A DNA stretch of 64,000 bases from Streptomyces sp. NBC_01591 (lineage in GTDB: Bacteria; Actinomycetota; Actinomycetes; Streptomycetales; Streptomycetaceae): positions 8,556,001 through 8,620,000 of the forward strand of contig NZ_CP109327.1 of the NCBI RefSeq assembly GCF_035918155.1, given 5' to 3'. Shown here one piece after another: positions 1,891-41,928 of the stretch (positions are counted from its first letter, which is position 1; every line of letters begins with the position of its first letter). The notes under the pieces were generated by a model, which saw only the letters and a list, made by a program, of their open reading frames with translations, searched no databases and was not told the DNA's origin. The position numbers and the translations under genes were made by a program.

Positions 1891-2091
1891 TCAGTTGGTG
1901 ATGTACCAATCGTTCTTGAGGTACTCCAGGGTGTAGCTGCCGAGGTCGCTCTCGGAGAAGGTGGCAGGGGCCCTGACCGCTTCGACCGGCATCTCGATCT
2001 TGTCGGGCGTGCGCACGACGACGTCGGTGTCTTCGAGCCGGACGAGGGCGTTCCCGCAGGCGAGTCGGGCGGGCTCGATGGGGACACTCAT
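1891..2091 (-). CDS. Small hypothetical protein downstream of rep
   Basis: A 66-residue acidic protein beginning MSVPIEPARLACGN and ending LEYLKNDWYITN. Its ATG overlaps the stop of the upstream primase/helicase gene in an ATGA arrangement (4 nt), so the two are probably translationally coupled. No family is recognised. The coupling and normal codon use support a genuine small gene of the integrative element, perhaps a replication accessory factor; that role is inference from position only. Confidence 0.55.
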   Translation of the reverse strand: MSVPIEPARLACGNALVRLEDTDVVVRTPDKIEMPVEAVRAPATFSESDLGSYTLEYLKNDWYITN

Positions 2092-4181
2092 GCGTTCTCT
2101 TCCAGCTCAGGGTTCAACGCGATACCGGGGTAGAACTTGCGTTGGTTGGACAGGATTATCTCTTTGGGTGTGGCGATGCCGACGGTCTCACGGACACGTG
2201 CGGCGAACGCTCGCGAGGAGACCGGGTTGGCGCCCTCCAGCTGGCACCAGTTCCGGTAACTGGTGTAGAGCTGGGTTTGTTCCGCACGCATGGCGGGGTC
2301 CACGGTGCAGCACTCGCTCAGGAACCGGCCCGTATGGTCTTCGGTCTTTGCGTACGTGTGGGTGGCGGTGCGCACCCGCGGGGGGCCGGTCAGGTCGCGA
2401 GGACCGTTCAGATAGCGGCGCGCGCCGGTGACGAGCCAGTGCAGGATGCCCGGTCCTTCTTCGGCGACCAAGACGTCGGCGAGGTTGTCGATCTTCCGGT
2501 CGTCTGCGACGACCCGGTCGAACGGGATCAGCCTCATCCGGCGCCAGAACGCGTAGCCGCCAGTGCTGACTTCAGGGCGCTGGTTGCCGAGCAGCCACAG
2601 TGTGTGGGTGGGGGTGAAACTGAAGAAGTCCTGTCGCATCCTGCGGGCCTTGATCCGGTCTCCGCCGGTCAGTAACTTGACGCGGGACTCGTCGAAGCGG
2701 TCACCGGGCTTGGGTTCGGAGCAGACGATAATGCGTCGGCCGTGCAGCTCGGCGAGATCGGTGGCGTGCACCACGCAAGACCGGGCCATCAGGAAACTGG
2801 GCGGGGCGGCATCCGCGTAGTCCCCAAGAAGTCTGACGATGACGTCCAGAAAAACGCTTTTGCCGTTTTTTCCCTGTCCATAAAGGAATGGCATGATCTG
2901 CCCGCCGACATCGCCGGTGATCGAGTAGCCCAGCAGCTCGTGCAGAAAGCCGATCATCTGACGGCCGTCGGCGTCGTCGCCGAACGTGTCGGTGAGGAAC
3001 CGCTGCCAGCGGGGTGTTCCCATCGGCCGGGCTTCCACGCTCGTGGCACGCGAGTGGCAGTGCCTCTCCGGATCCGGCGCGGCGACCAGACCGGTGTGGA
3101 GGTCGACCACCCCCTCCGGAGTGCACAGTGCATAGGGATCTGCGTTCAGCAGCGCAGCGTTGAGAGTCATCCCCGGCGCGGCCTTGGCCTGTATCAGCAT
3201 GGCCATCATTCCGGATGTTGTCAGAGCCCGCCGGCGGTGCCGGCGCAGCTCCGCTCCGCCGTGCCGCCCGTGCGGGTCGGTCTCCGCCAGCCTTTCGGCC
3301 ATCTCGCCGGCTGCCCACAGTACGGTGTCAGCCTCGTCGATCTCCCACCGATAGTTCGACCACCGGTACCAGCCCAGGCCCGGCACATGCCTGAAGCCCC
3401 GCCCGTACAAGGCGACGAACAGCTTGGCGTTGCCACGGTCACTGAGGGTGTCGGGCAGCAGACCGTGCTCGGTTGCCCGCATCGCCGTTGGCGCAGCTCT
3501 CTTGGTGGCCTGCGCCGGGACGGTGCTGGCGGGGGAGCCGGAGCCGAGCAGAATCTGACGTACGACCTTTTGAGGGTCGAACGGCCCGTCATCGTGGCTG
3601 GGTGCGTGGTTCACCTGCGGTCTCCCAGATCGAGCGGAAGGCGGCTGCCCGCAAGCAATCCCGGACTGGATGATGTGCGGTGTTCGGCGTTCCTGGCCCG
3701 GACGCATGTATACCGCAGCCTCCACCAGGGCCGCTTCCGCGTCCTGCGCCGCCAGACGGCCGGTGGTGGCCAGGCCGCCCGCGGTGTGAGCGGCTCGGCT
3801 GAACGTGGCGCTGGCGTTTTCCTTTTCTGCCACAACAGTGCAGTTGAGGACCGGGGGCCGCAGCGTCGATACGCTATGGGCCGGGTCCTTTGCACCCCGC
3901 AGCGCCGCGAGGCGGTGACATCCGTGCAGTGACCCCGACGGGGTAATCGCGATGCCGGGCAGCAGCTGGTTCCGTTCGGGCAGCGATGTCGCGTGGACAT
4001 CGATGACGACCGGACCGGCATCGCCGCATGCGACACCCACCCCGGGGTCAGACTGATGCGCCCACGCACCGGGATACACCGCGCACAGGTCGTCGAGGCG
4101 TGGAAGCAGTGACGCCAGCGGCCGACTGGGCGACGCGGGCACTCGCGGAAGCTGTGGCCCGGGCTCCGGCAGTCGTGGCAA
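2088..4181 (-). CDS. Damaged AICE-type prim-pol/D5 helicase (Rep)
   Basis: The C-terminal half (about residues 215-697) is a complete P4/D5-type replicative helicase. Walker A is GQGKNGKSVF (Lys at about 441), followed by IIVCSEPKPG and a sensor-like LWLLGNQRPE. The N-terminal part is a decayed bifunctional primase-polymerase domain. GVACGDAGPVVIDVHA, then LAALRGAKDPAHSVSTLR, and later FSRAAHTAGGLATTGRLA match conserved blocks of Streptomyces AICE Rep proteins. The stretch that normally joins the last two, about 80-100 residues including the GGLH region, is missing. The true N-terminus (PAHCHDCRSPGH block) lies upstream to about 4290 in another frame, implying a frameshift near 4100. It is a replication initiator of an integrative element, probably non-functional as a primase. 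Confidence 0.75.
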   Translation of the reverse strand: MPRLPEPGPQLPRVPASPSRPLASLLPRLDDLCAVYPGAWAHQSDPGVGVACGDAGPVVIDVHATSLPERNQLLPGIAITPSGSLHGCHRLAALRGAKDPAHSVSTLRPPVLNCTVVAEKENASATFSRAAHTAGGLATTGRLAAQDAEAALVEAAVYMRPGQERRTPHIIQSGIACGQPPSARSGRPQVNHAPSHDDGPFDPQKVVRQILLGSGSPASTVPAQATKRAAPTAMRATEHGLLPDTLSDRGNAKLFVALYGRGFRHVPGLGWYRWSNYRWEIDEADTVLWAAGEMAERLAETDPHGRHGGAELRRHRRRALTTSGMMAMLIQAKAAPGMTLNAALLNADPYALCTPEGVVDLHTGLVAAPDPERHCHSRATSVEARPMGTPRWQRFLTDTFGDDADGRQMIGFLHELLGYSITGDVGGQIMPFLYGQGKNGKSVFLDVIVRLLGDYADAAPPSFLMARSCVVHATDLAELHGRRIIVCSEPKPGDRFDESRVKLLTGGDRIKARRMRQDFFSFTPTHTLWLLGNQRPEVSTGGYAFWRRMRLIPFDRVVADDRKIDNLADVLVAEEGPGILHWLVTGARRYLNGPRDLTGPPRVRTATHTYAKTEDHTGRFLSECCTVDPAMRAEQTQLYTSYRNWCQLEGANPVSSRAFAARVRETVGIATPKEIILSNQRKFYPGIALNPELEENA

Positions 4182-4319
4182 TGGGCGGGGATGCCTTGCG
4201 ACGGGCAGCCGGTCGGTTGCGCCGGCCGGGCGCGTCGCAGCGCGGTCGACAGTACGTCAGGCAACCGAGTTGCCGGTCGAGAAGCTACGGTCCGGCCTGA
4301 GTTGCTGTCACGTAGGTGC

Positions 4320-6010
4320 AGATCAGGAACCATACGTACTCCTTTCAGCGACTGAAGCGACTCACATTGCAAATTGGTGGAGCGTGGATAGGAACGAATG
4401 CCTGAGGGCTGCAGGAGCCCCACCCAGCTCCTGTTGCCCCACGTTCATCCGGTTGCGCGGGGCAATATTCAATCGAGGAACTATCTGGCTGAACCGATGC
4501 GGTGGCGGCAAGGATATGCCTCGTGTTTCATCTGCAAGATCCAAGCTCGATCAACTGTACGTGGAAGACATTTTACTTTCCGTATGGATGTGGGTTCTCC
4601 GGGGGATCCGAGCGACGCAGCGCGGAAACGACTGGTGGTTATGCAGCTTTGGCTTCTGAGCATCGCATGGCTCAATCGCCCGACCTGAAGGATTCGTTGG
4701 AAGCTTGTCGCTCGGGCATCAGTTCCACGACTGAGTCCCTCGTCGGCATGCGACTTCATGGGCTGCAGAAATGAGGCTGCACTATTCCGTGACCCGGCGT
4801 CAAACGATCACTGCAGTGCCGCGGTACGAGTCGATGGCCGACTGTACAGATCGCGCCAAAATGCCTGCTCGCGACGGCTGGTTGGGCTGTCTCGCACCGT
4901 CTGTGGACCGGGTGATTCGCGGTGCCGGGGCGGCGATCTGACCTGTGACGGTACGGATTTCAGCCGAGTCATTGATGTCGGCCGCAGCGTCGAAGTGCAC
5001 GCAGTGCACAGATCGAGGGGTGCGATGTTGCGACACCTTAGGGCTTTGCTGTAGGGCGTTACCGGCCATCAAATTCTCTCACGGGATCAGGCCGAACAGA
5101 TCACGCCAAGAACTGGCAGGACAGGCGGTCGTTAAAGGAAGTCAGCAGAAGCGATTCGCCAAGCAGAATCGTTGCGTCGCGTGGCACCGATTCCGCGGCA
5201 TCGTGGGTTGCCCACGCGCATGAACCACTTCGTCCAGATGCTTGATGGTGGCCTACCCGAGGAGTCTTCGAGTGGTCCGAAGCGGAGGGCGTGGATATCG
5301 CCATAGGTACGCCATTCGGGTGACATCATGTCGGCTTTGTTGCTGTCATGTGCGCCCGAGAGGATAACTATCACTATCCAAACCGGTGGGCCGCCCACCC
5401 TCTCCGGGGGAGCGGCTGCTCATTTCTCTCGTAGCTGTCCAGGTGAGCTGAAAGCCTGGGGATCTGCCGGGTGGGACTGCCGCAATGGGCACCCCCGTGG
5501 GAGGGGTTTGGATCCGCCAGTCGGTGCCATTGGCACCGGCTGGTGCGGCGGCCCAAGTGACCTCTGTGGGGAAACCATGCGAGCTTCCTTGGCGACGGTT
5601 CCGACGTCCAGTGCCCGGTCTCGGACTCCTGAGTTCTGCGGTGAGACCGCTCAGGTCGATGCGGCGCGACGCCAGTCGGCAGGGGTACCCGTCGCTCTCA
5701 CGTTGTGCTCGGCCAACTCGCTCACCGTCGCGCACGGCGCAGGGGCTTTGCCGGAGCACGGAGTCTGCCGTCTCTCCGCGGCACCGAATCACCTCCGGGG
5801 CTGGTGGCCGGCATCGTCCGGACCCCGCCCTCCGTGTCGGCGTCGGGCGGGTGTGCCCCGCTTCCCGTCACTGAACCGCCCACTCGGCTCTCGGCACGGT
5901 TGTCCCCGCCCGGGCGAGCGCATCGGTACGGCAGGAATCCCCAGCCGGCGGTTTATGCCGCGTTGTGTCCGGAAGCGCAGACCTGCTGCCCCGCCACCTG
6001 GGCAAGGCCC
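4320..6010. other. Gene-poor stretch, no supported CDS
   Basis: About 1.7 kb with lower GC than its surroundings and many short frames on both strands. None shows a recognisable domain, a good ribosome binding site or consistent actinobacterial codon bias. It contains one copy of the ~34-bp dispersed repeat at 5376-5412. A frame beginning MRASLATVPTSS near 5578 resembles the start of a short frame near 9725, so a diverged duplicated segment may be present. Otherwise nothing can be supported. Confidence 0.5.
5376..5412 (+). repeat. Dispersed ~34-bp repeat, copy A
   Basis: Core aaccggtgggc, then gccc, then ctctccgggg. The same arrangement occurs at 9566-9599 (same strand) and, reversed, at 9158-9192. 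A ggataac sequence sits 10-20 bp upstream in both same-strand copies. A shared catgcgag lies about 170-215 bp downstream of both. This points to diverged copies of a larger segment rather than chance matches. Confidence 0.6.
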
Positions 6011-6030
6011 AGGACGAGAGAGGAAGGACT

Positions 6031-6525
6031 ATGCTGCCGACTGCTTGGTCGGGGGTGCAGATCGCACTGTCCCCCCAAGAGATTGAACAATGGCCGGATA
6101 CGGCGTCAGCCCGGGCCCTGGCCGACGGTTGCCCCAGCAGGCGACCGGTCTCGTTCCGCGTGCCGACATTGGAGCGAGCGGTGCCGGTCTGCCGTCAACT
6201 GGCCCGGCTGTGGATGGACTCCGAGGACATAACAGACGAAAGTGCCCGGTGTGCGGCCTTACTCGTGATCTCTGAGCTGATGACCAACGCCATCGTCCAC
6301 ACCAACAGCCTCTCGATCACGGGCCGTCTGCAAAAGGACGGTGACTGGCTTCTTGTGGAAGTCCAGGATGAGGGTGGAACCTCGTCCGTCCCGCACCGTG
6401 CTGGCAACGCCAACGAGTACGGTCGAGGCCTGGTGATGGTTGCGCAGTCCGCGCAGGCAATGGGAACGCGGCAGGAGACCGAGGGAGGCCGCACGTTCTG
6501 GGCACGGATCGCACTGGCCGGGTGA
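6031..6525 (+). CDS. RsbW-like ATP-binding protein (anti-sigma kinase fold)
   Basis: A 164-residue protein of the HATPase_c_2 type. N box ELMTNAIVH (about residue 83), G1 box VQDEGG and G2 box GRGLVMV are all present, and almost nothing else is fused to the ATPase fold. Streptomyces encodes dozens of these stand-alone proteins. Some phosphorylate anti-anti-sigma factors and sequester sigma-B-type factors, but most have no known partner. The start at 6031 is chosen because aggaagg lies 4-10 nt upstream; an earlier in-frame start at 5965 has no such site. No partner anti-anti-sigma or sigma gene is adjacent, so the target is unknown. Confidence 0.8.
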   Translation: MLPTAWSGVQIALSPQEIEQWPDTASARALADGCPSRRPVSFRVPTLERAVPVCRQLARLWMDSEDITDESARCAALLVISELMTNAIVHTNSLSITGRLQKDGDWLLVEVQDEGGTSSVPHRAGNANEYGRGLVMVAQSAQAMGTRQETEGGRTFWARIALAG

Positions 6526-6917
6526 AAACCGTCGCCAACTCACGTCCTCAGCCCGGTGAACAGCGCCCGCGGCGCCGGTTCACCTCGTCGGTCGGGCGCT
6601 CGATGGCGAGCCCGGTCGTCCGGTGACCTCGATCGATCACGTGCCGTATTCCGGAAGCATGAAGCACCTGAGAGCGAGGTCATCCTCGTGCGGCTGGAGG
6701 AGCCCCGCATGGCCCGGTTGAAGCAGACATCGGTTGTGGTGCCGATTCAGGTCCCACACCGGCCAACTGAACCAAGACCGTGCCGGTCCAGAGCTCTGCG
6801 TCCCGTGCGGTCTGTGCCGTCCGCCGGTTCCGTTGATGGCGCACAGGAGGTCATCTCGACAGGTGGGTGCTTCGCCGAAGCGCCCTGCCGGTTGAGGCGC
6901 AAGGTGTAGACGCGACG

Positions 6918-7650
6918 ATGCGGACATACCTGAGTCGAGGGCAGCTGATCGACGTCGAGGAACCGGCCTGGCCGGAACTCAGGGAGATACTCGGTGCCGG
7001 GCCGGTGTCCGTTGAGGTGCTTCCGCCTGAAAGCCCTGGGCGGGGCGTCGCTTCTCCAGCCGCAGGTGACGGCCAGATCGTACGTGGGCGCGGGCGTGCT
7101 GCACCGCGGCGGTTTCCTGGGCGACGGATGGTTGCGGGGCTTCGGCAGCCCCGTGGACGGGGCGGCGCACGGGGTGCCGAGCCTGGCTCGGGTCAATCAG
7201 TTCCCTGGAGCGCGTTCGACCCCGCATGGTGAGCGGGTACCAGCCGGGTGGTGGCACACGACGTGCTGGCCAGCGTCTTCTCTCAACGGCGGAGCTCCCG
7301 TCGGCGTCGGCTGTCCCGGTGCCTCTGGAGAGATGGTCTACTTCGCCCCGGATTCCTTTCGCCGGGAGGCTCTGGGCGTCGGCCACTCGGCGTGGATGGT
7401 CTGGCTGGTCTCCGGGGCGCTCGATGAGTTCTACGCGGATCTCCGCCGGCCCGGCCGGCAGGACGAGGTCCGAGCACTGAACAGCGACCAGGGCCTGTCA
7501 ACGTTTCCCCCGTTGTGGTCTGCCGAGGCACGCCAAGTTCTCTCCGCGGCCAGTCGTCGCGCCGTGCCCATGTCGGAGTTGCTCGGCCTCGCCCGGGACT
7601 CATGCCGACAGTTCGATGGAGTTGATCCGGGCTTTCTCGGCGCCGTGTGA
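6918..7650 (+). pseudogene. DUF2625 family protein, frameshifted
   Basis: Conserved DUF2625 blocks occur in order but in different frames. The N-terminal MRTYLSRGQLIDVEEPAW to VEVLPPESPGRG runs from ATG 6918. HRGGFLGDGWLRGFGSP follows after a shift near 7040. A VVAHDVLASVF segment in a third frame near 7255-7285 then returns to SLNGGAPVG, GEMVYFAPDSF, ALDEFYADLRRPG and LSTFPPLW, with the stop at 7648-7650. At least two indels therefore break a gene of about 240 codons. The family (related to E. coli YfbM-type and SMI1-like small proteins) has no firm function. The retained protein-level conservation suggests recent decay or sequencing indels. Confidence 0.7.
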
Positions 7651-8098
7651 ACTGGTCGCCCCGTCCAGTCGGCGGCAGCAGATCAGGTCCCGCACGGCTG
7701 CCTGCCGAGCCTTTCGCCGCTCCGAACCGCGGGATCGGTCGGGCGGCTCTCGCCGTCGCCGGGGTCCCGGGCTCGCCCCACGAGGGGCACAGGAATGGCG
7801 TCCTGCGAGGTCCCGGCCCGGCCGTGTCCTCGTGGATTGCCGGGAGGCGCGGGGGGAGAGGCCGGGCTGAAAGCGGCTCGGAAATGCCGAATCGGTGGTG
7901 AGTGGTTGCAGGCCGCTTGCGTCTGCTGGCTGGGGGGCGGCGCGGGGGCGTGGCGTCGGCGGCGGATCGTATCCCTGCGAACGCTCCGGCGGCGCCGCCT
8001 GATCGGGCGCAGCCCGCGTCGCAACGTTTCCTCTGCCGTTGCGCCTCGGGTCCGTCGCCGCCGGGTGGGCTGATCGCTACAGAATCGTCCCTGGTTCC

Positions 8099-8143
8099 GA
8101 ACAGCGCCGGCCTGCGCGAGGAACTCGCAGGCCGGCGCTGTTC
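8099..8143 (-). terminator. Strong 18-bp hairpin terminator
   Basis: A perfect 18-bp inverted repeat (8099-8116 with 8126-8143, core cagcgccggcctgcg) around a 9-nt loop. It lies 55 bp beyond the stop of the minus-strand IPT/TIG gene and is probably its terminator. It has no U-tract, as is usual in Streptomyces, so it could act in both directions. Confidence 0.8.
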
Positions 8144-8197
8144 ACAGCCCTGGCCAGTCGGCGTGGCGACGTGGCAGGAGAGGCCGTGAGGGGGTGG

Positions 8198-8782
8198 TCA
8201 GATGTAGGTGTACCCGCTGGGGACAGTGGTGGTGCCGGCCGCGGTGGTGACCACGACCGGGACGTTGCCCGCTGTGGCGCCGGCCGGGATGATCCCGAAC
8301 AGCAGGATTCCGGTCGGGTCGCTGCCCAGCACGGTGGCCGGAACTCCGTTGACGGTGACAGTGCCTCCGTTCAGATTGGTGCCGTTGATCACGAACGGAG
8401 TGCCGCCGGCGACCGGTCCCGAGGCCGGGATGATGCTGGTGGCGGTGGGAGGAACAGGCGTGGACGGGTCCACGTAGGTGTAGGAAACCGAGTTGCTGGT
8501 ACCACCGCCCGTGGTCACGGTGACCGGCACCGTGCTTGCGGCGTTCGCCGGGACCACGACCGTGACAGTGAGCCCCAGCACGTCCTGGGAGACGATGGTG
8601 GCCGGCGTGGTATCGAACAGGACGCTGGTGGCACCGCTGAGGCCCACTCCGAGGAGCTGGACCGTGTTGCCGCCGGCGACCGGTCCGGAGTTGGGCAGGA
8701 CCGCCAGGAGCAGCGGGCCGAAGGGGAAAGGCAGTTGGGCGACCGATCGTGACTGGTCGGACGAGGTTGCGATTGTGGACAT
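8198..8782 (-). CDS. Two-domain IPT/TIG protein
   Basis: A 194-residue protein made almost entirely of two IPT/TIG (immunoglobulin-like) domains: about residues 29-108 (LPNSGPVAGGNTVQLLG to SVSYTYV) and 115-194 (SIIPASGPVAGGTPFVIN to PSGYTYI). Each starts with the typical P-xSGPVAGG and ends in Y-TY. The start ATG is preceded by gcaggaggatccgcc, an excellent ribosome binding site. No signal peptide, membrane segment or catalytic domain is seen, unlike cell-surface proteins that carry these folds. It could be a secreted or particle-associated structural protein exported by a non-classical route; that is inference. A strong hairpin follows the gene. Confidence 0.85.
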   Translation of the reverse strand: MSTIATSSDQSRSVAQLPFPFGPLLLAVLPNSGPVAGGNTVQLLGVGLSGATSVLFDTTPATIVSQDVLGLTVTVVVPANAASTVPVTVTTGGGTSNSVSYTYVDPSTPVPPTATSIIPASGPVAGGTPFVINGTNLNGGTVTVNGVPATVLGSDPTGILLFGIIPAGATAGNVPVVVTTAAGTTTVPSGYTYI

Positions 8783-9157
8783 GGCGGATCCTCCTGCGAC
8801 AGGCGGACCGTTGCGGTCCGCACGGGAACCGGCCGAGAGCGAAGGCGGGCTTCCCTCCTGCCCGACGGGGCAGGGGTGAGAGGAAGAACGGCTCTCGGTT
8901 CCGGGAAGGCGACCGGGCAGTGGCTCGCGGCGATGAGTCCGCTCGGGACAGGGGCGGACCCGACGGCGATCGGGGGTCGACGGACATCAGCCGCGACGTG
9001 CGCACCATTGCCCGGTCTCAAGCACGGCGAGACGCTTCACCGGCCGATGTCGGGAGCACCCACCGGCCGGTGGCTCTCCGCGAGCAGCCTTGCAGTGGCT
9101 CTGCTCGCCGAAGCCCTGCCAGCAGGAAGGGCTGAAACGGGCGGGCCAATTGCCGAG

Positions 9158-9192
9158 CTCCCCGGAGAGGGATGGGCTACCCACCGGTTCAA
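9158..9192 (-). repeat. Dispersed ~34-bp repeat, copy B (inverted)
   Basis: Starts ctccccggagagg and ends acccaccggttcaa: the reverse complement of copies A and C with a few substitutions. Together with copy C it forms inverted arms about 375 bp apart around an AT-richer spacer. Confidence 0.6.
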
Positions 9193-9565
9193 CGACTTCA
9201 GTAACTCCAATTAATGAACTGTCATCAACCCCTGCGGTAATTAGTCACCCGATCGGATCAGTCTGAAATTTGCTCCGAGAGTGGCGGCCGGCTGTGGGCC
9301 GCTGCCGCCGTGACGGCGGCAGTCACGTAAAGATCATTTCACCGCAATCAGCCACTGCCGGATAATTGCCGGAGTGCGGGCTGTTTCCATTCGTGTGCGA
9401 CATCTCGGCGGCAAACCGTCACGAATGCGACTTCGTGGCCGGTGAGGTCGGATTTGCGGAGCCTGGCGAGAAGATGAACCCACAGTTCATCATATTACGC
9501 CATACGGGTGAATTGTAAGCGGCCTCATTGCGGGATTATTCAGCTCTGTGGGATAACCGTTTTGA

Positions 9566-9599
9566 ATCCAACCGGTGGGCTGCCCTCCTCTCCGGGGAG
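9566..9599 (+). repeat. Dispersed ~34-bp repeat, copy C
   Basis: Core ccaaccggtgggctgccc followed by ctctccggggag. Same orientation as copy A and opposite to copy B. Confidence 0.6.
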
Positions 9600-9982
9600 T
9601 GTGGCAACCGACGATCCGCCGCACAACTGGCCAGCCAGTTGCGTGCAGCATCGAGATCGTTCGTCGCAATGAGCGCCCCCGGGCAAGGAAGTGGCGGCTC
9701 GCATCACCTCGCCAAAGGGGCGCCATGCGAGTTCCCAGTGCTACCAAACCGTCATCAGGGCCTGTTTCCCGCCATCGGGGCCCGTTGTGATCCCGGCGGC
9801 GGTCTACGCCCGGACCCCCGCGCTGCGCCCTGAAACCGCGCTGGTCAATGCGGTCACGATGGCGCACGCTGCCGGCTTCGACCCCGCGGCGGCCATGTCA
9901 TTTCGTACGCGAGGCCAGTCGCCGACACCGTCCGCGCCGCCTCCGGACCGGCTCCCGCACCTTGGGGAGTGACGCGCCGCAC

Positions 9983-10099
9983 ATGGGATTCCTGGACCAG
10001 TTGCGCGGCATGGTGACACTCACCGTTCTGTGGTGGAAGCATTTCCAGCTGCACTCGAGGCGGCGTGGCAGAAAACGATCGAGCCAACGTATCCGCTGA
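9983..10099 (+). CDS. Possible 38-residue peptide upstream of DUF5988 gene
   Basis: An ATG frame encoding MGFLDQLRGMVTLTVLWW followed by a strongly basic tail rich in Arg and Lys. The layout, a short hydrophobic helix then a polybasic end, is plausible for a membrane-associated peptide. It lies 35 bp before the DUF5988 start. The nearest purine tract (gggag) is about 13 nt upstream, which is far. No homologue is recognised, and the frame may be fortuitous. Confidence 0.3.
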   Translation: MGFLDQLRGMVTLTVLWWKHFQLHSRRRGRKRSSQRIR

Positions 10100-10133
10100 T
10101 CACTCAGCGCTGATTCTCCGACTGGAGAGCACT

Positions 10134-10343
10134 ATGCCTCAATCGATTCGTGTAATGCTCAGCGGAGGGCCGGAGAGCTCTCCGTCGACCTGGGAAGTGA
10201 AATCACTGGAAACTGAAACAAGAGTGACTGTTCCCCACTGGAACGGTTATGAGCATTTTGAGTTCGCGGATCACCATGCCGAACTCGATGGTGAAATGCT
10301 TCCGGTCTACCGATGGATCTACCGCACATACATTGCCGAATAG
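10134..10343 (+). CDS. DUF5988 family small protein
   Basis: A 69-residue protein. GYEHFEF followed by the C-terminal VYRWIYRTYIAE matches the DUF5988 signature (GYEHFE, then P-V-FRW-RT-IAE). Start ATG 10134 is preceded by ggagag at 5-10 nt; an upstream in-frame start at 10065 has no such site and would overlap the previous frame. Members of this family are small actinobacterial proteins repeatedly found next to PKS and NRPS genes, with no established activity. Here it leads the polyketide locus in the same orientation, so it is probably part of that operon. Confidence 0.8.
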   Translation: MPQSIRVMLSGGPESSPSTWEVKSLETETRVTVPHWNGYEHFEFADHHAELDGEMLPVYRWIYRTYIAE

Positions 10344-10438
10344 ATCCCTGCTCGAATCCGGCCGCTGCGGAATCTCTTCCTCAGTAGCACACAGCCGATT
10401 ACGCGCGAGGGCTACCAACTGATCCGGAGGGGATCAAA

Positions 10439-10474
10439 ATGACGAATTCTCTGTTGCACGTAGGTGTGTCGTGA
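10439..10474 (+). CDS. Eleven-residue leader ORF coupled to ketosynthase
   Basis: ATG 10439 is preceded by ggagggg at good spacing. It encodes MTNSLLHVGVS and stops at TGA 10472-10474, which overlaps the GTG start of the ketosynthase (GTGA). The ketosynthase GTG itself has no good ribosome binding site, so its translation probably depends on ribosomes terminating here. Alternatively, a single indel has split off the original N-terminus. Confidence 0.5.
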   Translation: MTNSLLHVGVS

Positions 10475-11805
10475 GCGGGGCGGCCCCCCTCTCGGGAGGC
10501 GGCCGGAACGCGCGGGATGCCGTGGTCACCGGTATCGGGTTCTGCCTTCCCGGTGACGGGCGACCCGTCTTCACCGCGGACGACCTGTGGAACATCGCCT
10601 CCCGAGGGGCCTCCTGCCTCACGCAGAGCAATGCCTACTACGGCTCGGTAGACCTCTCGGACGCAATGTTCGACGAACTCCTCCCCGATGTCGCCCCCTT
10701 CTTCTCACGCCACTACACCGCAGCGCACCGGTTCGGCCTGGTGTCCATGGCGCAGGCATGCTCGGACGCCGAACTGGATCCCTACTCGGGCGACCTGGCC
10801 GACGCGGCGATCCTGGCCGGACGCGGCGGCGTCGACGCGAACATCGACAGTTACCTCGCCGTGCTGCGAGCCGATCCCGAGACCATTCGCGTGACGGAGG
10901 CGATGGAACTGTTCGTCGCGGCAGAACAGGCCGTCACTCCCTCCGACGTTGCCCTGGTCCAAGGCGCACTGTCCCGATCGAAAGGCCCCAACTTCACGGT
11001 CTCGTGCGGCTGCGCGTCATCCGCGGTGCAGATCGGCAACGCCCGACGCCTGATCGCCGACGGCGAGGTCGACATCGCCGTCGTGACCGGCGTCGACATC
11101 TTCAGCGTCAAACTGATCCGTAACATCCAGCGCCTGCTGCAGGGCGCGCAGAAGACGTACGAGATCATCCGGTCCGACGACATGCCCGCGCTTCTGCCGT
11201 CCTTCGACTCCCTCATGCGCCCCTACGACCGGCGTGCCGACTGCATCAACCACGGCGAGGGGTCGGTGACCGTCATCATGGAAAGCCGCGAGCACGCCAC
11301 CCGGCGCGGGGCCCACCTGTACGGTCAGGTGCTCGCCCAGGCCACGACCCGCGACGGGCTGACCAACCCTCTGGCTTCCGACGAGACGGGCCGCGAACTG
11401 GTGTCCGCCGTCCGCCGATGTCTCGCAGACCGCTGGGAGATCGGCCAGGTGCCCTACGTCCACGGTGGCAGCGACGGCAACGTGGTGGTCACCGCCTTCG
11501 AGGCGAACGCGATCAAGGAACTGTACGGCTCCGCCGCCCCGGACCTGCTGATGACGTCTCAGGAAGGCTGCTTCGGCCACAACGGCGCGCCCGCGGGCTG
11601 TCTCGGCGTCGCTCTTACCCTGCTCATGATGGAGCGCGGCGAGGTATGTCCCACCGCGAACTGCGAGCAGCCGGCAGACAACCTCACCTTCGACCCCGTT
11701 CCCGGCGTGCGCACCCGGCCTCTCGACTTCGACTACGCGCTGAGTTTCAACTACCAGGTCGGCGGGGTGAAGAGCGCGATTCTCCTGGGAAGCCCCGACG
11801 TCTGA
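10471..11805 (+). CDS. Free-standing beta-ketoacyl synthase, atypical active site
   Basis: A 444-residue KAS I/II (FabF-like) thiolase-fold protein. The nucleophile is Cys181 in SCGCASSAVQIGNA, and the two catalytic histidines are His331 (YVHGGSDGN) and His370 (CFGHNGAPAG). Five residues before His370, where FabF and PKS ketosynthases keep a conserved Lys, this protein has Glu365 (SQEGCFGH). The usual HGTGT is replaced by HGGSDG. It keeps the Cys needed for condensation, so it is not a chain-length factor, but it may act on a non-standard acyl donor or as a priming or transfer KS. It lies 137 bp before the type I PKS and probably works with it. The GTG start overlaps a short leader ORF. Confidence 0.85.
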   Translation: MSGAAPLSGGGRNARDAVVTGIGFCLPGDGRPVFTADDLWNIASRGASCLTQSNAYYGSVDLSDAMFDELLPDVAPFFSRHYTAAHRFGLVSMAQACSDAELDPYSGDLADAAILAGRGGVDANIDSYLAVLRADPETIRVTEAMELFVAAEQAVTPSDVALVQGALSRSKGPNFTVSCGCASSAVQIGNARRLIADGEVDIAVVTGVDIFSVKLIRNIQRLLQGAQKTYEIIRSDDMPALLPSFDSLMRPYDRRADCINHGEGSVTVIMESREHATRRGAHLYGQVLAQATTRDGLTNPLASDETGRELVSAVRRCLADRWEIGQVPYVHGGSDGNVVVTAFEANAIKELYGSAAPDLLMTSQEGCFGHNGAPAGCLGVALTLLMMERGEVCPTANCEQPADNLTFDPVPGVRTRPLDFDYALSFNYQVGGVKSAILLGSPDV

Positions 11806-11942
11806 GGCCCGCCCCGGTAACCCTCAGCCCTCCACGGCACCCGGTCCGACCCCTGCCCGTGCGCGTTGCGAGCCCGGATGAGCCGTCAGCAGAGCGGGAG
11901 CTCACCGCTTCCTTGCGCAGTCAATCGATAAGGAGAAACCCC

Positions 11943-14900
11943 GTGGGCCGACACAGGCATCCCTCGAACAAGGCAACGGACCCCATCGCTGTGATTGGCA
12001 TGGGCTGCAGGCTTCCTGGCGATATCGACTCACCCGCAGCCCTGTGGCAGCTGCTCACCGAGGGGCAAGAGGCGGTCGGGAATCCGCCGCCGGGACGCGA
12101 GACGCTCTGGGCACAACACGGCGCCGAGCGAACCCCCGGCGAGCCCACACCTCCTCAGCAGGGCGGCTACCTGAATGACGTGTCCGGTTTCGACGCGGAC
12201 TTCTTCGGTGTCTCCGGCCGAGAGGCGGACGTACTCGATCCCCAACACCGGCTGCTGCTGGAGGTGGCCTGGGAGGCGTTGGAGCACGCCGGATTGCCAC
12301 CGGATCGATTGACCGGCTCGCCGACAGGGGTCTTCACCGGTCTCAGCTACAACGACTACATGGATCAGCTCGCCGGACAGCCCCAGGAACTCGAGGGCTC
12401 CATTCTGACGAACGGGCACTGCGTCGCCGCAGGCCGTATCTCCTACCTCTTGGGCCTGCACGGCCCCTGCGTCGCCCTCGACACGGCCTGCTCGTCCTCG
12501 CTCGTCGCGTTCCACCTGGCCTGCCGGGCGCTGCTTCAGAACGAATGCGATCTCGCCCTCGCCGCCGGCGTCACACTCATGCTCCGCCCCAGGACAACCC
12601 TGTCCTTTGCCCGGATGGGAATGCTGTCGCCCACAGGGCGCTGCCACACCTTCGACGCAGCCGCGGACGGCTTCGTCCGAGGTGAAGGCTGCGGCGCGGT
12701 CGTACTCAAACGTCTGGCCGATGCCGAACGGGACGGCGACCGCGTCCTCGCCGTCGTCCGCGGGTCCGCCGTGAACCAGGACGGCAGGTCCGACGGCCTG
12801 GCCGCGCCCTCTCCCACAGCCCAGCAGGCCCTGTTTCAGCAAGCACTCACAAACGCCGGGATCGACCCGCAGGACATGGGGATGATCGAGGCTCACGGAA
12901 CGGGAACCCCGCTCGGTGACCCGATCGAGTTCGCCAGCCTGGCGCAGGTGTACGGCACCGGCCACGGCCGGTGCGCTCTGGGTTCCGTCAAGACCAACCT
13001 CGGCCACCTGGAGCCCGCCGCCGGGGTCACCGGACTGATCAAGACCGTCCTGTGCCTCCAACACGGGCTCATCCCCCCCAACGTTAACTTCACCCGCTGG
13101 AATCCGGCCATTGCCGCGGACAAGACACGCTTCTTCGTACCCACCGAGCTGACTCCGTGGCCCGTACAGGCGCCGACGAGGCTGGCCGCGGTCTCCTCCT
13201 TCGGATTCTCCGGCACCAATGCCCACGTCATCCTGGAACAACCGCCACAGGACAGCCGAACGGCCCTGTCACGCCGACGACAGACCCCTCCTGCCGCATC
13301 CGAAGTGCTCCTGGTTCCGGCCGGATCCCCCGCCGTACTACCGGCCGCGGCACTGCGTCTGGCCGACTGGCTGGAGAGCGACGGCGCGAAGGTACCGCTG
13401 AGCGACGTCGCGCACACCCTGGCCCTGCGACGCAGCGCAGGACGGGGACGTCTCGGAGTCGTGGCCCGTTCGACGCCCGACGCGGTCGGCGCACTGAGGT
13501 CGTTCGCAGCGGGCCGGGCCCACCCGGCCGTGGTGACGGGGCCGACGAGCATCACCGCCTCCCGGCAGCCCGTATGGGTATTCTCCGGGCAGGGCTCGCA
13601 GTGGCCGGGCATGGGACGGGGACTGCTGCAGGAACCGGCTTTCGCAGCGGCCCTGACCGAAGTCGACGCTCACATCTTCGCCGAGGCCACGTTCTCCGTA
13701 CTGGACGTGGTACAAGCCGGTGAACCGGTGACGGAATGTTCCAAAGTGCAGCCCGTGCTGTTCGCCCTGCAGATCGCGCTGGCCGCCACCTGGCGCGCCC
13801 ATGGAGTCGAACCGGCCGGTGTCATCGGCCACTCCATGGGAGAAGTCGCGGCCGCTGTCGTGGCCGGGGCCCTGTCGCTGAAGGACGGCGCCAAGGTGAT
13901 CTGCCGGCGCTCCGCGCTGCTCACCAGGATCGCTGGAGCCGGTGCCATGGCAACCGTAGGACTGGACCGGGCCGCGGTGGAGGCCGAACTCGCCGCGAAC
14001 AATGCCGAGTCAGTCTCCGTGGCGGTCCTTGCCGCGCCGAACTCCACCGTCGTGGCTGGCGACCCCATCCAGGTCGCAAGGCTCGTCGCCGGCTGGAAGG
14101 ACCGCGGTATCCCGGCACTGACCGTGGCGGTGGACGTCGCCTCCCACAGCCCTCAGGTGGACCCACTGCTCGCAGAACTTCTCACCAGCCTTGGCGACCT
14201 GACTCCTCAGCGCCCCAGGATCCCCTTCTACTCCACCGTGCTGAAGGACCCGCACGAGGTGCCGGCCTTCGATGCCGCCTACTGGTGCGCCAACCTGCGC
14301 AACCCGGTGCGCTTCTGCCCGGCGGTGGCCACGGCCGCCGCGGACCGCAACCTGGTGTATCTCGAGGTCTCCCCGCACCCAGTGGTCACACACGCCGTCG
14401 CGGAGAGCCTGCAAGACCTGACCGGCGAACCGGTCGTGCTGCCCACGCTACGCCGCGGAGAGGACGAACCCACCACGTTCCGCACCCAGCTCGCGGCCTT
14501 GCACTGCGCGGGTGTGAGCGTCGACTGGTCGCCGCTGTACGCGCGGGGCGACCTCGCTGACGTCCCCACCATTACCTTCGATCGCAAGCACCACTGGGTG
14601 GAAGCCGCCCGGCCGGCCACCCCCGCCGAGCAGCGCGCCGCGCGCTCGGCCGTCGCCCTGCCGGGCAGCCACACCGAGGTGCCCGGCGAGCAGGTGCGCC
14701 ACTGCTGGCAGGGGGACGCCGGAACCACGGGGCTGCCCTGGTTGACCGACCACCGAGTGCATGGAACCCCGGTACTGCCCGGCGCCGCCCACTACGCCAT
14801 CGCATTGACCACCGCCTGTGAGGTGTTCGACGCCACCCCCGCCGACGTAGAGATCACCGACGTCTCATTCCGGGAGCTGTTACGTCTGACCGAGCACACC

Positions 14901-17900
14901 GACCTCAGCACGACCGTCACCATGACCGCCCCGGACCACGCCACATGCGAGATCTTCGGACGCGGTGATGACGGCCAGTGGGTGACGTACGCCTCAGCCG
15001 TGCTGCGCCGTCTCTCCCGGCCCACGCGCACTCACACCGCGTCCGTCGCCACCCTGGCACGGAGGCACTCGGTCACCGACGATCCCGCAGCTCTCTACAC
15101 AAGACTTCGCTCCCGGGGACTGGAACACGGTCCGGCGTTCACCGGCATCACGGATCTGCATGTCTCCCGCAGCCGAGACAGTTTCTGGGCCCGTGTCGTT
15201 GTCCCGGAGCCCGCGCGGACCGGAGACCTCTGCTTACGGGTTCACCCTGTCCTCGTCGACCTCTGCCTGCAACTCCTGGTCGCAGGGCCCGTCGAGGACA
15301 TCGGCCAGGGGCTGATCCTTCCCGTCCAGATGGGGGCAGTACGGATTCTGGGGGATCCCGCGACCGCTGTGTACTGCCACGCCCGGATCGTTGAGACCAC
15401 AGCCGACAGCGTCATGGGGCATGCCCGTCTGCTGAACGAGACAGGCAATCCGGTTATGGCCATCGACGGAGTGAAGTTTGCACGCCGAAGCACTCGGAAG
15501 GCCGACCAGGTCGACCAGTGGTTCCTGGAGGCCGGCTGGCATCCGGTCCCACGTCCACAGGCCACCTCGCAGCCAGCGCCCGGAAAATGGCTCGTCATCG
15601 GGGAGGGCCAAGGAGACGCCGAGGCACTGGCCACCATCCTGCGCGAGGCCGGGGCTCAGGCCGAGGCGTGGGAAACCCCGCTGCGAGATGAGCGGCTCGG
15701 ACCGTTCGCTGAATCCGTCAGTACACACCTGGAGGCCATCGCGTCCCCCGCGCGCGCCGTCGTGATGCTGTGCGGCACATCGCCCACCACCACGGACGAT
15801 CCCACTGTGGGTGCCCAGCGGCGTGCCCGACGAATCCTCGCTACTGCCCAGGCAGCCGCCCGCAGTTCCACCCCTCCTCGCCTGTACGCCGTCACCCGGG
15901 CCGCCCGCGCGGTAGCGGCCGACGAGACCGTGGATCTTGAGCAAAGTGCCCTGCGTGGCGTGATCCGCGTCCTGGCGTTCGAACACCCGCACATGCGTGC
16001 CACCTTGGTGGACACGGACCACGGCGACCCAGGCCTGCGGAGCCTGGCCGCGGAACTGCTCGCCGATGGCCACGAAGACGAAATCGCCCTACGAGGCACC
16101 ACCCGGTACATCGCCCGTCTCGATCACGCCCCCCTTGCCGCCTCCGAACAGGTCGCAGCGGCCACCCGCACTGTGCGCTACGGGGTGGACGGATTCCGCC
16201 TCCGGGCGGGGCGGCTCGGGGATCTCGGCAGTCTGGAACTCGCCGCGACCGGGCGGCGGACTCCAGGACCGGGCGAAGTAGAGCTGTGCGTCCAGGCAGC
16301 GGGCCTCAACTTCCGCGACGTACTCACGGCTATGGGCCTCCTGCCCGGCGAGCAGGACATCCGGTACCGGATCGGCTTCGAGTGCGCAGGTGTGGTGACC
16401 GAGGTCGGGCCTGGCGTCGAGCACCTACGCGTCGGCGACCCGGTGCTCGCCGTTCACCTCGAAGGCGGAGCCTTCGCCTCGTTCGTCACTGTGCCCGCGA
16501 CCGTGGTCGCCCCGATTCCGGCCATGCTCGATCCTGTCGCCGCGGCAGGAGTGCCCACGGCCTTCCTCACTGCTTGGTACGCGTTGCGCCACGTCGCCCG
16601 GCTGCGCGCCGGAGAACGTGTCCTGATCCATTCGGCCAGCGGGGGCACCGGTCTGGCGGCGGTCGCCGTCGCCAAGCTGCTCGGCGCCGAGGTGCTGGCC
16701 ACAGCTGGCAACGAAGAGAAGCGACGATACCTACGCGGCAGCGGGATCAGCCGGGTGATGGACTCCCGATCCCTGGACTTCGCTGAGCAGACCCGCAACG
16801 CCACCCACGGCCAGGGCGTCGATGTCGTCCTCAACTCGCTCTCCGGTGCGGCAGTCCGCGCAGGACTGGAGACGCTTCGGCCCTTCGGCCGTTTCGTCGA
16901 ACTGGGAGTGCGCGACATCCTGGCCGACGCCCCTGTCGGGCTGGCTCCGTTCCGGCACAACATCACCTTGAGCACCGTTGATCTCATCGAACTCCAGCGG
17001 ACCCGCCCCGACATGTTCGCGACCGTGCTGCGTGAGGTCGTCACCGAGTTCACCGAAGGCCGTCTCAAGCCGCTGCTCTGCACCCCGTATCCGCTCGCCG
17101 AAGCCACCGACGCCTTCCGGCTGATGGCCAGCGCCCGCCACATCGGCAAGCTGGTCCTGACCATCCCGAACCGAGGGAAGACCACTGCGGTCCTTCCCGA
17201 GGGACCGCCTGTCGTTCACACAGATGGCGCCTACATCGTGACCGGCGGCCTGCGCGGCCTCGGCCTGGCAACCGCGCACTGGCTGGCCGAACAGGGCGCG
17301 AGCCACATTGTCCTCAACGGCCGCACACCTCCCTCCCTTGCCGCCGCGCGCGCGATCACGGAGCTGTCCGCCGGCGGCACCCGGATCACTGTCGTACTGA
17401 GCGACATCGTCAAACCTGGTACCGCGGAACGCCTGGTGGCCACCGCCACCGAAGACCGGACACCCCTACGCGGTGTCATCCACTGTGCCATGGTCCTCGA
17501 GGACGCCGCGATCACCAACATCCGAGACCCCCAGCTGAAGCGCGTATGGAACCCCAAGGTCACCGGCGCGTGGAAACTGCACAATGCCACCGCAGCGCAC
17601 ACACTGGACTGGTTTGTCGTCTTCTCCTCCATGGCCTCCCTGCTGGGCAACCCCGGGCAGGGCGTGTACGCAGCCGCCAACTCCTGGCTCGACGCTTTCG
17701 CCGCATGGCGGAGCCGCGCAGGCATGCCCACGCTCGCCGTCAACTGGGGGCCATGGGGCGAGACCGGTGTCGCAACCGACTTCGGCAGCCGGGGCTACGA
17801 GACGATCCCGACCGACAAGGGATTGCTGGCGCTTCAGTCGCTCCTGGCACACGGACGCGTCCAGACCGGGGTGATTCCCGGGAAGCCGAGCACCTGGATT

Positions 17901-18299
17901 CCCCTCACCGGAAGGCAGTCCTCGTTCTTCAGCCTCCTTGCCCCGGACAACGAACACTCGGTAGACGCGCCGGAGGATTCCCGCGACATCCGGAGCCGTC
18001 TCGAGGGCCTCGCGCCAGGTATTGCCCGGCGCGAGGCCCTCGAGACCTACATGGCCGAGCACATTCGCGGAGTTCTCCGGCTGGGCAGCACCACTCTTGA
18101 CCCGCAGACCCCTCTGAAGGCCCTGGGTTTCGATTCACTGTTGTCCATGGAACTACGGGTCCGTCTGGAATCTGACCTCGGGGTCGAGCTCGCCAACAAC
18201 TTTGTCTGGCAGCATCCGACGCTGTCGGCACTGGCCACAGGACTAGCCGAGTGCATGGGCCTGGAACTGCAGAGCACCGATCCTTACCGGAACGTGTGA
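11943..18299 (+). CDS. Type I polyketide synthase, KS-AT-DH-ER-KR-ACP
   Basis: GTG 11943 follows aaggagaa at 4-12 nt and gives 2118 residues; the open frame extends upstream only as a shadow of the KS gene. Domains: KS about 14-440 (Cys183 in DTACSSS, His318 in [10 protein letters not shown], Lys350 and His355 in KTNLGH); AT about 540-840 (Ser631 in GHSMGE, specificity motif VASH 732-735, not the malonyl HAFH); DH about 910-1190 (His937 in [12 protein letters not shown], Asp1106); ER about 1414-1742 (NADPH motif SASGGTGLA near 1566); KR about 1760-1945 ([10 protein letters not shown], Tyr1909); ACP (Ser2065 in LGFDSLLS). All reductive domains look active, so each cycle should give a saturated unit. 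With one module and no thioesterase it probably works iteratively or needs a partner for release. A methyl-branched or fatty-acid-like chain is the inferred product. Confidence 0.93.
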
Positions 18300-18398
18300 C
18301 GCAGCAGCAGCCGAGCGGCGCAGTCGGACAGCCGGACGACCGCTACCGTGGCAGTTCCGGGCCTCATATATTGCACGGCCCAAACCCTCCTGCGGGGC
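18300..18398. other. PKS-IS3 spacer
   Basis: A short spacer with no hairpin or gene seen. The PKS gene has no recognisable thioesterase or tailoring gene following it, because IS DNA begins directly here. Confidence 0.5.
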
Positions 18399-19094
18399 TG
18401 AATCGCCCCGGTTCGAATAGAGACTTGATTCCGTGAAGGGATTGAGTCATGGCACGCCCTTCTTCGTATCCCCTTGAGCTGCGTAAACGAGCGGTCCGTA
18501 TGGTCGCTGAGGTTCGTGGCGATTACCCGAACGAGTCGGCCGCGCTGAGGGCGGTCGCCCAGAAGCCCGGTATCGGCTCGGCCGAGACTCTGCGGAACTG
18601 GGTCAAGCGGGACGAGATCGACTCCGGGCAGCGTCCGGGGACGATCACGGAGGAGTCCGCGCAGATCAAGGCGATGAAGAAGGAGATCGCCGGGTTGAAA
18701 CGGGCCAACGACATCTTGAAGGCCGCGGCTCTTTCTTCGCGGCCGGGCTCGACCGGCCACACACTCGCTCGTAGCGTTCATCGACGAGCGCAAGGGCCGC
18801 TTCGGCGGCGTCGAGCCGATCTGCAGGACACTCACCGAGCACGACTGCAAGATTGCCCCGTCCACCTACTACGCGGCGAAGAAACGCGCGGTCACCCCCT
18901 CGGCCGGGCAGGTGCGGGATGCCGCCCTCAAGGAGCTGATCACCGAGGTCCACGAGACCAACTTCCGTGTCTATGGCGCCAGGAAGGTCTGGCGTGAGCT
19001 GCACCGCCAGGGCCACGAAGTAGCCCGGTGCACCGCCGAACGCCTGATGCGCGATCTCGGCATCACCGCCGCCGTCCGCGGAAAGAAGGTTTGA
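18399..19094 (+). mobile_element. IS3-family element, truncated
   Basis: The left end TGAATCGCCCCGGTTCGA at 18399 fits an IS3-family inverted repeat. OrfA starts at ATG 18449 with MARPSSYPLELRKRAVRMV and a helix-turn-helix, then a leucine-zipper-like region LKRANDILKAAA. A slippery ctttctt near 18728 leads into the OrfB frame: FFAAGLDRPHTR, IDERKGRFGG, STYYAAKKR, NFRVYGARKVWRELHRQG. OrfB stops after GITAAVRGKKV at 19092-19094, before the DDE integrase core, and the downstream sequence is unrelated. The element therefore lost its 3 prime half and cannot transpose. Confidence 0.85.
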
Positions 19095-27482: not shown

Positions 27483-27812
27483 CTACGCGCTTTTCGGCGC
27501 CGCTTGCTGCACGACCTCGAAGGACCACAGGGCGGACCCGCTCGCCGCCGGCCTGGGGCGCTCGCTGCTCTCCGCGTCACCGCTCTGGTGTGCTGTCTTC
27601 ATGGGGCCCTCCATCCAGGCTTGGAAGGACTTTTCGTCGCGCCACCGCGTGTAGACGAGGTAGTTATTGGTCCCTTCGACGGGGCGGAGGAGTTCGAACC
27701 ACTCGAACCCGTCGGAGTTCTCCACGGCATGGGCACGGGAGGCGAAGCGCTTCTCCAGCGTCTCCCGCTGATCGGCGGGGACGGTCAGTACGTTGATCTT
27801 GACTACGCTCAT
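27483..27812 (-). CDS. ABM-domain (antibiotic biosynthesis monooxygenase) protein
   Basis: A 109-residue single ABM ferredoxin-like domain. MSVVKINVLTVPADQ begins strand 1, then RFASRAHAVENSDGFEWFEL and YTRWRDEKSFQAWM carry the conserved helix and W-x-x-x-xF-xW core. ATG 27812 is chosen because aggatgagg lies just upstream; an upstream in-frame extension has no family similarity. Members are cofactor-free monooxygenases or haem-degrading enzymes. Some actinobacterial members of about this length act as MhuD/IsdG-like haem oxygenases, but I cannot distinguish these from sequence alone. It is one of the few intact genes in a field of IS relics, with its own terminator. Confidence 0.85.
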   Translation of the reverse strand: MSVVKINVLTVPADQRETLEKRFASRAHAVENSDGFEWFELLRPVEGTNNYLVYTRWRDEKSFQAWMEGPMKTAHQSGDAESSERPRPAASGSALWSFEVVQQAAPKSA

Positions 27813-27899
27813 GACCTCATCCTGCCGTACGGCGATCCGCAGGATGAGGAACGGCTCGTGCATGACGCGGTTCCGCGGGGCGCGGGGCACGCGACGGCG

Positions 27900-35187: not shown

Positions 35188-35229
35188 GTTCTCGGTTCCT
35201 TCGTGGGTCGGGCAGAGAAGGGGGCGGGG

Positions 35230-37389: not shown

Positions 37390-37501
37390 ACGGAAACGGC
37401 GAACGACGTTTGAAGTGGCCGGAGTTGGGCCAGAGCGTAGGGTCGCTCGAACGAGAAAATCAATACTGGACGAAGTTATTTATTTATCGTAGGTTGCCGC
37501 C
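37390..37501. promoter_or_regulatory. Divergent promoter between GH36 and ROK genes
   Basis: A 112-bp spacer with an AT-rich core, gaagttatttatttatcg at about 37472, unusual in this GC-rich region and suitable for -10 elements on both strands. ROK repressors usually autoregulate from such sites. No clean palindrome of more than 6 bp was found. Confidence 0.5.
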
Positions 37502-38659: not shown

Positions 38660-38800
38660 ACGAGTGTCACCATCCCGTTCGCCGGCCCAAGCTTCCGGCG
38701 CAACCGATGTCCATCACCGTCTGCCAACTGTGAATGCCGGACACCGGCTGCGCCGGACAACAACACGTACACCCAACCCTCTCAACCTGAAGGACGCGAA

Positions 38801-41064: not shown

Positions 41065-41069
41065 GCAAC

Positions 41070-41915: not shown

Positions 41916-41928
41916 GCCGCACCTGACT

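Follow-up and report, generated by a model that had tools for sequence, protein, structure and literature searches.

A mycocerosic acid synthase-type polyketide synthase and a free-standing ketosynthase with an altered active site form a pair on a plasmid-related segment in Streptomyces

What can a free-standing ketosynthase-like (KS-like) protein do when its gene stands directly ahead of a complete, fully reducing polyketide synthase (PKS)? The question is raised by a stretch of 64,000 nucleotides of Streptomyces sp. NBC_01591 (hereafter the window; positions 8556001-8620000 of NZ_CP109327.1), located on an 8.81-Mb contig of a 10.25-Mb genome, its right end 186 kb short of the contig end. Three genes follow one another there in a row on the + strand, encoding a DUF5988 protein, a free-standing KS-like protein (the lone KS) and a synthase with the domains KS, acyltransferase (AT), dehydratase (DH), enoylreductase (ER), ketoreductase (KR) and acyl carrier protein (ACP). 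A first interpretation made from the letters of the window (the sequence-only reading) had described this row as DUF5988, a lone KS and a single PKS module, and Pfam profile matches bear it out. We propose, with a probability of roughly one half, that the locus encodes a two-enzyme lipid synthase on a plasmid-related segment, in which a PKS of the mycocerosic acid synthase (MAS) type would be served by a lone KS turned trans acyltransferase, with off-loading as its favoured task. The pair represents a genuine, widely distributed variant of MAS-type systems, whose interest lies in the altered KS and in the plasmid link. Two genes suffice here to ask whether a KS can become the release or the loading enzyme of a fully reducing iterative PKS.

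Judging by its residues, the lone KS is a genuine but divergent ketosynthase. Aligned to E. coli FabF, it retains the nucleophile Cys181 and the GH histidine His370, and both are present in 34/34 aligned lone-KS sequences, that of the window included. In all of these 34, Gly, Ala or Ser occupies the position of the histidine in the HGT motif, and a glutamate (Glu365 in the window) that of the catalytic lysine in KxxxGH; two residues ahead of the HGT position, a His is found in 23 sequences and an Asn in 11. The same pattern (Cys and GH histidine kept, HGT histidine and lysine lost) recurs in 30/30 rows of a wider family set, 14 of which are also among the 34. The lone KS thus does not have the full KS catalytic set. 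Without the HGT histidine, decarboxylative condensation should be disabled, while, from work on FabB/FabF mutants, the Cys and the second His may suffice for acyl transfer. Non-elongating ketosynthases (KS0) are defined by a kept Cys and a lost HGT histidine, and the lone KS shows both. Chain extension by the lone KS itself, one of the roles offered by the sequence-only reading, can appeal to the KS fold and to the retention of the Cys and one His, but with two residues of the usual condensing set missing throughout and a grouping with FabF rejected (see below), an elongating role is not supported and appears very improbable.

The glutamate raises a different possibility, that of a new condensing enzyme in which Glu365 would act as the base and two acyl chains would be joined by non-decarboxylative Claisen chemistry like that of OleA. 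The Lys-to-Glu change is present in every member seen, an acidic residue occupies the Thr position of HGT in 27/30 rows of the wider set, and such head-to-head joining would release the chain too. Against this, OleA is of the KS III type, which lies outside the comparison made here, and the geometry would depend on a structural model of moderate quality; we consider this chemistry improbable. The predicted structure in question has a predicted local distance difference test score (pLDDT) of 78.6, and its best fold matches are of the FabF type (TM 0.73).

The lone KS is also distinct from the KS of primary metabolism. When the FabF model was run against the own genome, the lone KS ranked last of 26 matches (115 bits for a cut-off of 494). 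In a rebuilt KS tree of 50 rows, made without two own-genome rows of uncertain frame (own_L116 and own_L123), 13 close rows form a clade (100/100) nested in the wider family (100/100), and grouping these 13 with two FabF rows is rejected by the approximately unbiased (AU) test (p-AU 1.1e-55), with a long-branch warning between the family and the P rows. A grouping with housekeeping FabF had been set beforehand as a refuting test, and it was not found. The loss of His and Lys, the low FabF score and the AU test exclude a housekeeping FabF. A chain length factor (CLF) is excluded as well, since the lone KS keeps its Cys and does not group with CLFs in the tree. The broader idea of a non-catalytic partner, CLF-like or resembling the cispentacin cyclization factor, which would bind the PKS and set chain length, agrees with the loss of the HGT histidine and of the lysine; moreover, related clusters encode a second KS-like protein beside the KS relative, like a KS-CLF pair. 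The Cys kept in 34/34 sequences and in 30/30 of the wider set argues against it, as do the two own-genome rows taken as CLFs, which have lost the active-site Cys and with which the lone KS does not group. We regard such a partner as unlikely.

The wider family has its own distribution. Further Streptomyces clusters hold relatives of the lone KS (seven regions of group B, four of group C, and locus L033). A second KS-like type (L033, L100-L102, L107) is likewise without the HGT histidine, and a third KS type beside wider-family members (L033, L101, L105) has canonical residues in 3/3 rows. An altered KS is accompanied by an intact KS both in these clusters and in the PKS locus. Gene families were looked up for L033, L101 and parts of L107 and L108: the L033 and L101 clusters hold a canonical KS, a second KS-like protein without the HGT histidine, a CoA ligase, a CoA transferase and short-chain dehydrogenases/reductases. 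As a set, L100-L109, L112 and L033 represent uncharacterised type II-like lipid clusters with lone-KS relatives.

The synthase that follows the lone KS is MAS-like from end to end. Its Pfam order is KS, AT, DH, ER, KR, ACP, and 12/12 inspected motif sites are intact, in agreement with the earlier statement that the module has all its catalytic residues. Its best relatives of solved structure are mycocerosic acid synthases (9d2z at 1593 bits, residues 12-2108), and the NCBIfam Pks2 model gives 1910 bits, under its cut-off of 2400. A stretch of 12 AT residues is letter-identical in the MAS structures 5bp1 and 7agp; the entry 7agq has a Phe in place of the Ser of VASH, which we take to be an engineered specificity change. 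The VASH motif, which the sequence-only reading had opposed to the malonyl motif HAFH, is indeed at its place and is the ordinary MAS signature. It is present in 38/38 aligned PKS rows that passed a filter (a frame >900 aa containing GHSMGE; 4 of 42 candidates, L026, L030, L033 and L039, were dropped). MAS is described, in the passages of PMC12370991 used here, as a fully reducing iterative PKS acting on methylmalonyl-CoA, from which PapA5 takes the finished chain. Full-length homology to MAS supports the view of one fully reducing, iterative-type module, and the PKS probably works iteratively. Because VASH is the AT motif of MAS itself, a methyl-branched saturated product chain is likely, which gives the branched fatty-acid-like product suggested earlier a more precise form.

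The lone KS and the PKS form a real pair, as the sequence-only reading had supposed. Among 392 Streptomyces genomes, 42 have a KS match at E<=1e-100, of which 32 (about 8% of the genomes sampled) reach at least 65% identity and the others 45-54%. The PKS is next on the same strand in 30/30 short loci of the close KS and is also present in the remaining L110 and L111, i.e., in 32/32 genomes; no such PKS was seen in the 11 distant KS regions (seven of group B and four of group C). Among 33 loci located by their KS, the PKS lies directly downstream in 31, while the contig ends at that point in L030 and the distant L033 (45%) has none. When 199 genomes were searched with the DH-ER part of the PKS, 17 had a match at at least 57%, and, the 199 being taken as G000-G198, these coincide with the 17 genomes in which the close KS is found; in one of them (G150) the matched parts are on different contigs, and four further genomes show a PKS match of only 41-42% and no KS match. 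In a plasmid collection, the KS (at least 60% identity) and the PKS were each found in 22 records, 20 of them in both lists and the last two confirmed by local search, so that the association holds for 22/22. The divergences of KS and PKS are correlated (r=0.75 in 16 chosen loci; 0/2000 shuffles as high, the shuffles ignoring shared ancestry). The named loci belong to Streptomyces, Kitasatospora and Streptantibioticus; in 396 genomes of the phylum, a sample with few Streptomyces, the own genome was the sole match at E<=1e-60. The occurrence of PKS homologues without the lone KS and DUF5988 had been set as a further refuting test: PKS relatives without the KS exist, but those seen are at most 48% identical.

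Both genes of the pair are under purifying selection (dN/dS 0.18-0.33, five pairs each), and these values, together with the intact frames, exclude that the window genes are pseudogenes. Broken-looking PKS copies were observed in some relatives, namely L142 (NZ_CP107961, 13529-21355; strain NBC_00376), L023 and L026, due to an IS4 insertion and split frames; because these copies look broken, the pair appears to decay in some lineages.

In the mechanism that we propose, the PKS would extend an acyl starter iteratively with methylmalonyl-CoA and fully reduce each unit, leaving, as homology and motif suggest, a methyl-branched saturated acyl chain on the ACP. The lone KS would be a condensation-incompetent acyltransferase, whose Cys181 would hold the acyl chain as a thioester and pass it to another acceptor. 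The direction favoured is off-loading from the PKS, the task that PapA5 performs for MAS in the tuberculosis bacterium. Lipids of the MAS type are best documented in mycobacteria, in which the chain is removed by a distinct acyltransferase; here, such a role may have passed to a protein of KS fold whose active site has been rewritten. We prefer off-loading to priming because no thioesterase follows the terminal ACP of the PKS and no release gene common to the loci was recognised. In the window, 47 different open reading frames (ORFs) were scanned, some 20 called ORFs of up to about 100 aa lying outside the scan: no thioesterase family matched, and neither a PapA-type acyltransferase nor a loading ligase was among them. 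A linked loading ligase and PapA are features of the mycobacterial loci, not of the MAS enzyme. Likewise, the clusters of genes that recur as neighbours in 34 loci (20 representatives scanned, several without a family) included no recognisable release or tailoring gene common to the loci. The earlier claim that the window holds no thioesterase or tailoring gene thus stands for the thioesterase and has to be qualified for the rest: a metallo-beta-lactamase-fold protein (685-1404) and an ABM-family monooxygenase (27483-27890) are encoded about 9 kb off on either side, both outside the conserved block. Other neighbours are group-specific, such as a DyP peroxidase with an encapsulin in two loci and aromatic (spore-pigment-like) PKS genes in L010, L012 and L014.

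Starter loading is the main alternative. The lone KS would then take a starter acyl group from CoA or from the fatty acid ACP and prime the PKS; the residue pattern expected is the same as for off-loading, the KS gene precedes that of the PKS, and the KS relatives lie in clusters with CoA ligases and CoA transferases. However, the KS domain of the PKS is itself intact and can accept a starter, as in MAS, and the release gap would remain. We hold loading to be possible, if doubtful, and retain off-loading as the preferred direction.

The second part of our proposal concerns the plasmid context. Three linear plasmids of S. atratus, each about 0.9 Mb long, are colinear with the window from 2103 to 18309 at 96.4%, in 3-4 pieces, and five plasmids of 86-186 kb are so at 83-85%; the alignment with S. 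atratus ends 10 bases past the PKS. The conserved block hence begins at about 2.1 kb of the window and not at 10.1 kb, and the colinearity includes replication genes, as looked for in a linear-plasmid relative. The segment (primase, ATPase, IPT/TIG, DUF5988, KS and PKS) is thus shared with linear plasmids, as the S. atratus group demonstrates. Of the 22 plasmid stretches, 13 were examined and 12 annotated, with lengths of 25-49 kb and thus unequal distances covered; 12 of the 13 records are linear, the other being listed as circular. Of the annotated stretches, 10/12 hold a gene for a primase, primase-polymerase or DnaB-type helicase (the exceptions are NBC_00376 and K. cathayae), and 11/12 encode an IPT/TIG protein (all but NBC_00376). 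Some of these plasmids share a layout and are not independent, i.e., S. goshikiensis, Mg1, ADI95-16 and NBC_01431 on the one hand, and S. atratus, S. scopuliridis and NBC_01525 on the other. Because IPT/TIG matches fall at just five places in the own genome, a repeated neighbourhood of this kind is unlikely to arise by chance, as judged without a control on random plasmid genes. For the copy in the window, we infer that the segment moved from a plasmid to the chromosome. Given how often the pair lies close to plasmid replication genes, one may ask why a plasmid should retain a lipid synthase of 6.4 kb. One speculative and rather doubtful answer is that the lipid pathway belongs to the linear-plasmid backbone: the MAS-type synthase, a KS for chain transfer (or for Glu-based joining), the IPT/TIG proteins and the anti-sigma-like ATPase might together alter the host envelope to the benefit of the plasmid (transfer, exclusion or spore survival).

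Several observations weigh against the proposal as a whole. On the plasmid side, 20/32 genome copies of the pair are on contigs >7 Mb (chromosome-sized). In addition, DUF5988, TIG and primase matches are all absent next to the pair in eight loci of the violaceusniger-like group (L023 to L031, L026 excepted; L027 and L030 being short). The plasmid link is thus not universal. As for the enzyme, the loss of His and Lys also fits a non-catalytic partner or a new condensation chemistry, the His found two residues before the HGT position in 23/34 sequences might stand in for the lost one, and simple acyl transfer does not account for the invariant Glu365. The model of the lone KS is of moderate quality for judging the geometry of the active site. 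Release could be ensured by an unlinked thioesterase, and candidate partners lie near some pairs. In one plasmid, acyltransferase genes are about 6-12 kb from the PKS. In the violaceusniger-like group (L021-L029, L031), AMP-binding enzymes, an aminotransferase, an AsnC regulator and a DDAH-like protein are encoded upstream of the KS in 7-9 loci, on the opposite strand. They may provide a substrate, or may be mere neighbours without a link to the pair.

DUF5988 is an optional companion of the KS/PKS pair and is common elsewhere. It was found in 24 of the 33 loci located by KS, in two of them downstream of the PKS, and had no match in 9; it lies within the 1.5-kb flanks of 20/30 short loci. Of 150 genomes, 66 carry DUF5988, 54 of them without the close KS, and in the 12 that have both, it adjoins the KS in 9. 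The trio proposed by the sequence-only reading is hence too strict: DUF5988 as an obligatory third member is excluded by the 9/33 loci without a match and by the 54 genomes in which it occurs without the close KS. We would consider it an optional accessory. The protein, aligned with 18 homologues, is predicted to be mostly beta (pLDDT 88), and its model has no fold match in the PDB at E<=0.001. A second DUF5988 gene lies in the own genome at C2:350400-350600 (L072), away from the lone KS.

The features of the segment are collected in Table 1. The reading frame of the PKS opens at 11418; because AAGGAG lies in front of GTG 11943, this codon is preferred and is likely to be the start, giving 2118 aa. 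A start codon at the same distance as that of the lone KS is present in 13/29 anchored sequences. A mini-ORF of 11 residues (10439-10474) stands behind GGAGGGG and overlaps this start codon (GTGA), and a translational coupling of the two is possible. Within the PKS frame, between KR and ACP, there is an inverted repeat (17998-18046; 22-nt arms, 95% complementary, 5-nt loop).

Table 1. Positions of the genes and domains in the window, counted from its first nucleotide.
Feature	Position	Strand	Basis
P4/D5-type plasmid primase, left end of colinear block	2088..4181	-	PF08706; colinear with S. atratus and S. scopuliridis plasmids; match in 8/48 loci
HATPase_c_2 (anti-sigma-like) protein, recurrent neighbour	5965..6525	+	PF13581; match E<=1e-4 in 24/48 loci, large family
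IPT/TIG-domain protein, recurrent neighbour	8198..8782	-	PF01833; match E<=1e-4 in 28/48 loci
DUF5988 protein, 69 aa	10134..10343	+	PF19450, 87 bits (cut-off 27)
Free-standing KS-like protein, 444 aa	10471..11805	+	PF00109 49.9 bits and PF02801 44.2 bits (cut-off 20.8)
MAS-like fully reducing PKS, 2118 aa (likely start)	11943..18299	+	Pfam domains, end-to-end MAS match
PKS ketosynthase domain; DTACSSS, HGTGT, KTNLGH intact	11979..13091	+	Pfam and motif check
PKS acyltransferase domain; GHSMGE and VASH as in MAS	13572..14519	+	Pfam and motif alignment
PKS dehydratase domain	14673..15485	+	Pfam and motif check
PKS enoylreductase domain	16266..17159	+	Pfam and motif check
PKS ketoreductase domain	17226..17759	+	Pfam and motif check
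PKS acyl carrier protein, GFDSL; no thioesterase C-terminal to ACP	18054..18239	+	Pfam and motif check

Beyond the PKS, a transposase gene (HTH_Tnp_1; 18449-18997) begins 150 bases after its end, just past the end of the plasmid colinearity, and no tRNA was found in the window as an integration site. Farther on, a glycoside-hydrolase region (34327-51410) encodes GH36, GH5, GH35, GH38, an alpha-amylase, a ROK regulator and a binding protein; part of it has close relatives on Streptomyces and Kitasatospora plasmids.

In the literature searched, from which subscription papers mostly fell outside, no mention of DUF5988 was found. The KS/PKS pair was not described among the best matches listed, judged by title or the start of the abstract, for MAS with iterative PKSs in Streptomyces, lone ketosynthases, stand-alone linear-plasmid PKSs, TIG with linear plasmids, and KS-like transacylases, which is no proof of novelty. 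Compared with the MAS/Pks2-type PKSs of mycobacteria, the synthase of the window has the same domain order, end-to-end homology and AT motif; the loci differ, since a KS-like partner is present here and no PapA acyltransferase or acyl-AMP ligase was found in the window, and the Pks2 model stays at 1910/2400 bits. The nearest published case among the literature matches is the stand-alone PKS of an S. rimosus linear plasmid (BGC, biosynthetic gene cluster, 1P), which, according to the parts of PMC9045324 consulted, is likewise a single MAS-like module on a Streptomyces linear plasmid; these parts also cite a 2020 paper about stand-alone iterative PKSs in Streptomyces. Given both, it is doubtful that such a module is rare as a stand-alone synthase in Streptomyces, as had been stated. 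The S. rimosus PKS is 42% identical to that of the window, and in the plasmid record of isolate R6-500 (another strain than that of the paper) a P450 follows it and no lone KS or DUF5988 is annotated. The linear plasmid of YIM 121038 (L038, NZ_CP030772, 8698-18375) combines DUF5988 with a 48% identical MAS-like module and has two Rieske proteins in place of the lone KS.

For the lone KS, two systems offer a comparison. AmcF and AmcG of cispentacin biosynthesis, in the passages of PMC10698177 used here, are likewise divergent type II KS-like proteins with unusual roles, and their profile similarity to the lone KS is weak (94 bits for a cut-off of 325); AmcF differs in that it condenses and works with AmcG and a discrete ACP. 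The KS0s are said, in passages of PMC7618002, to be KS-fold parts that pass chains between carriers in type I PKSs without extension. Those described there are domains of modules, and the free-standing ones named in the same passages are without the Cys and decarboxylate, whereas the lone KS is free-standing, keeps its Cys and has exchanged the catalytic lysine for a glutamate.

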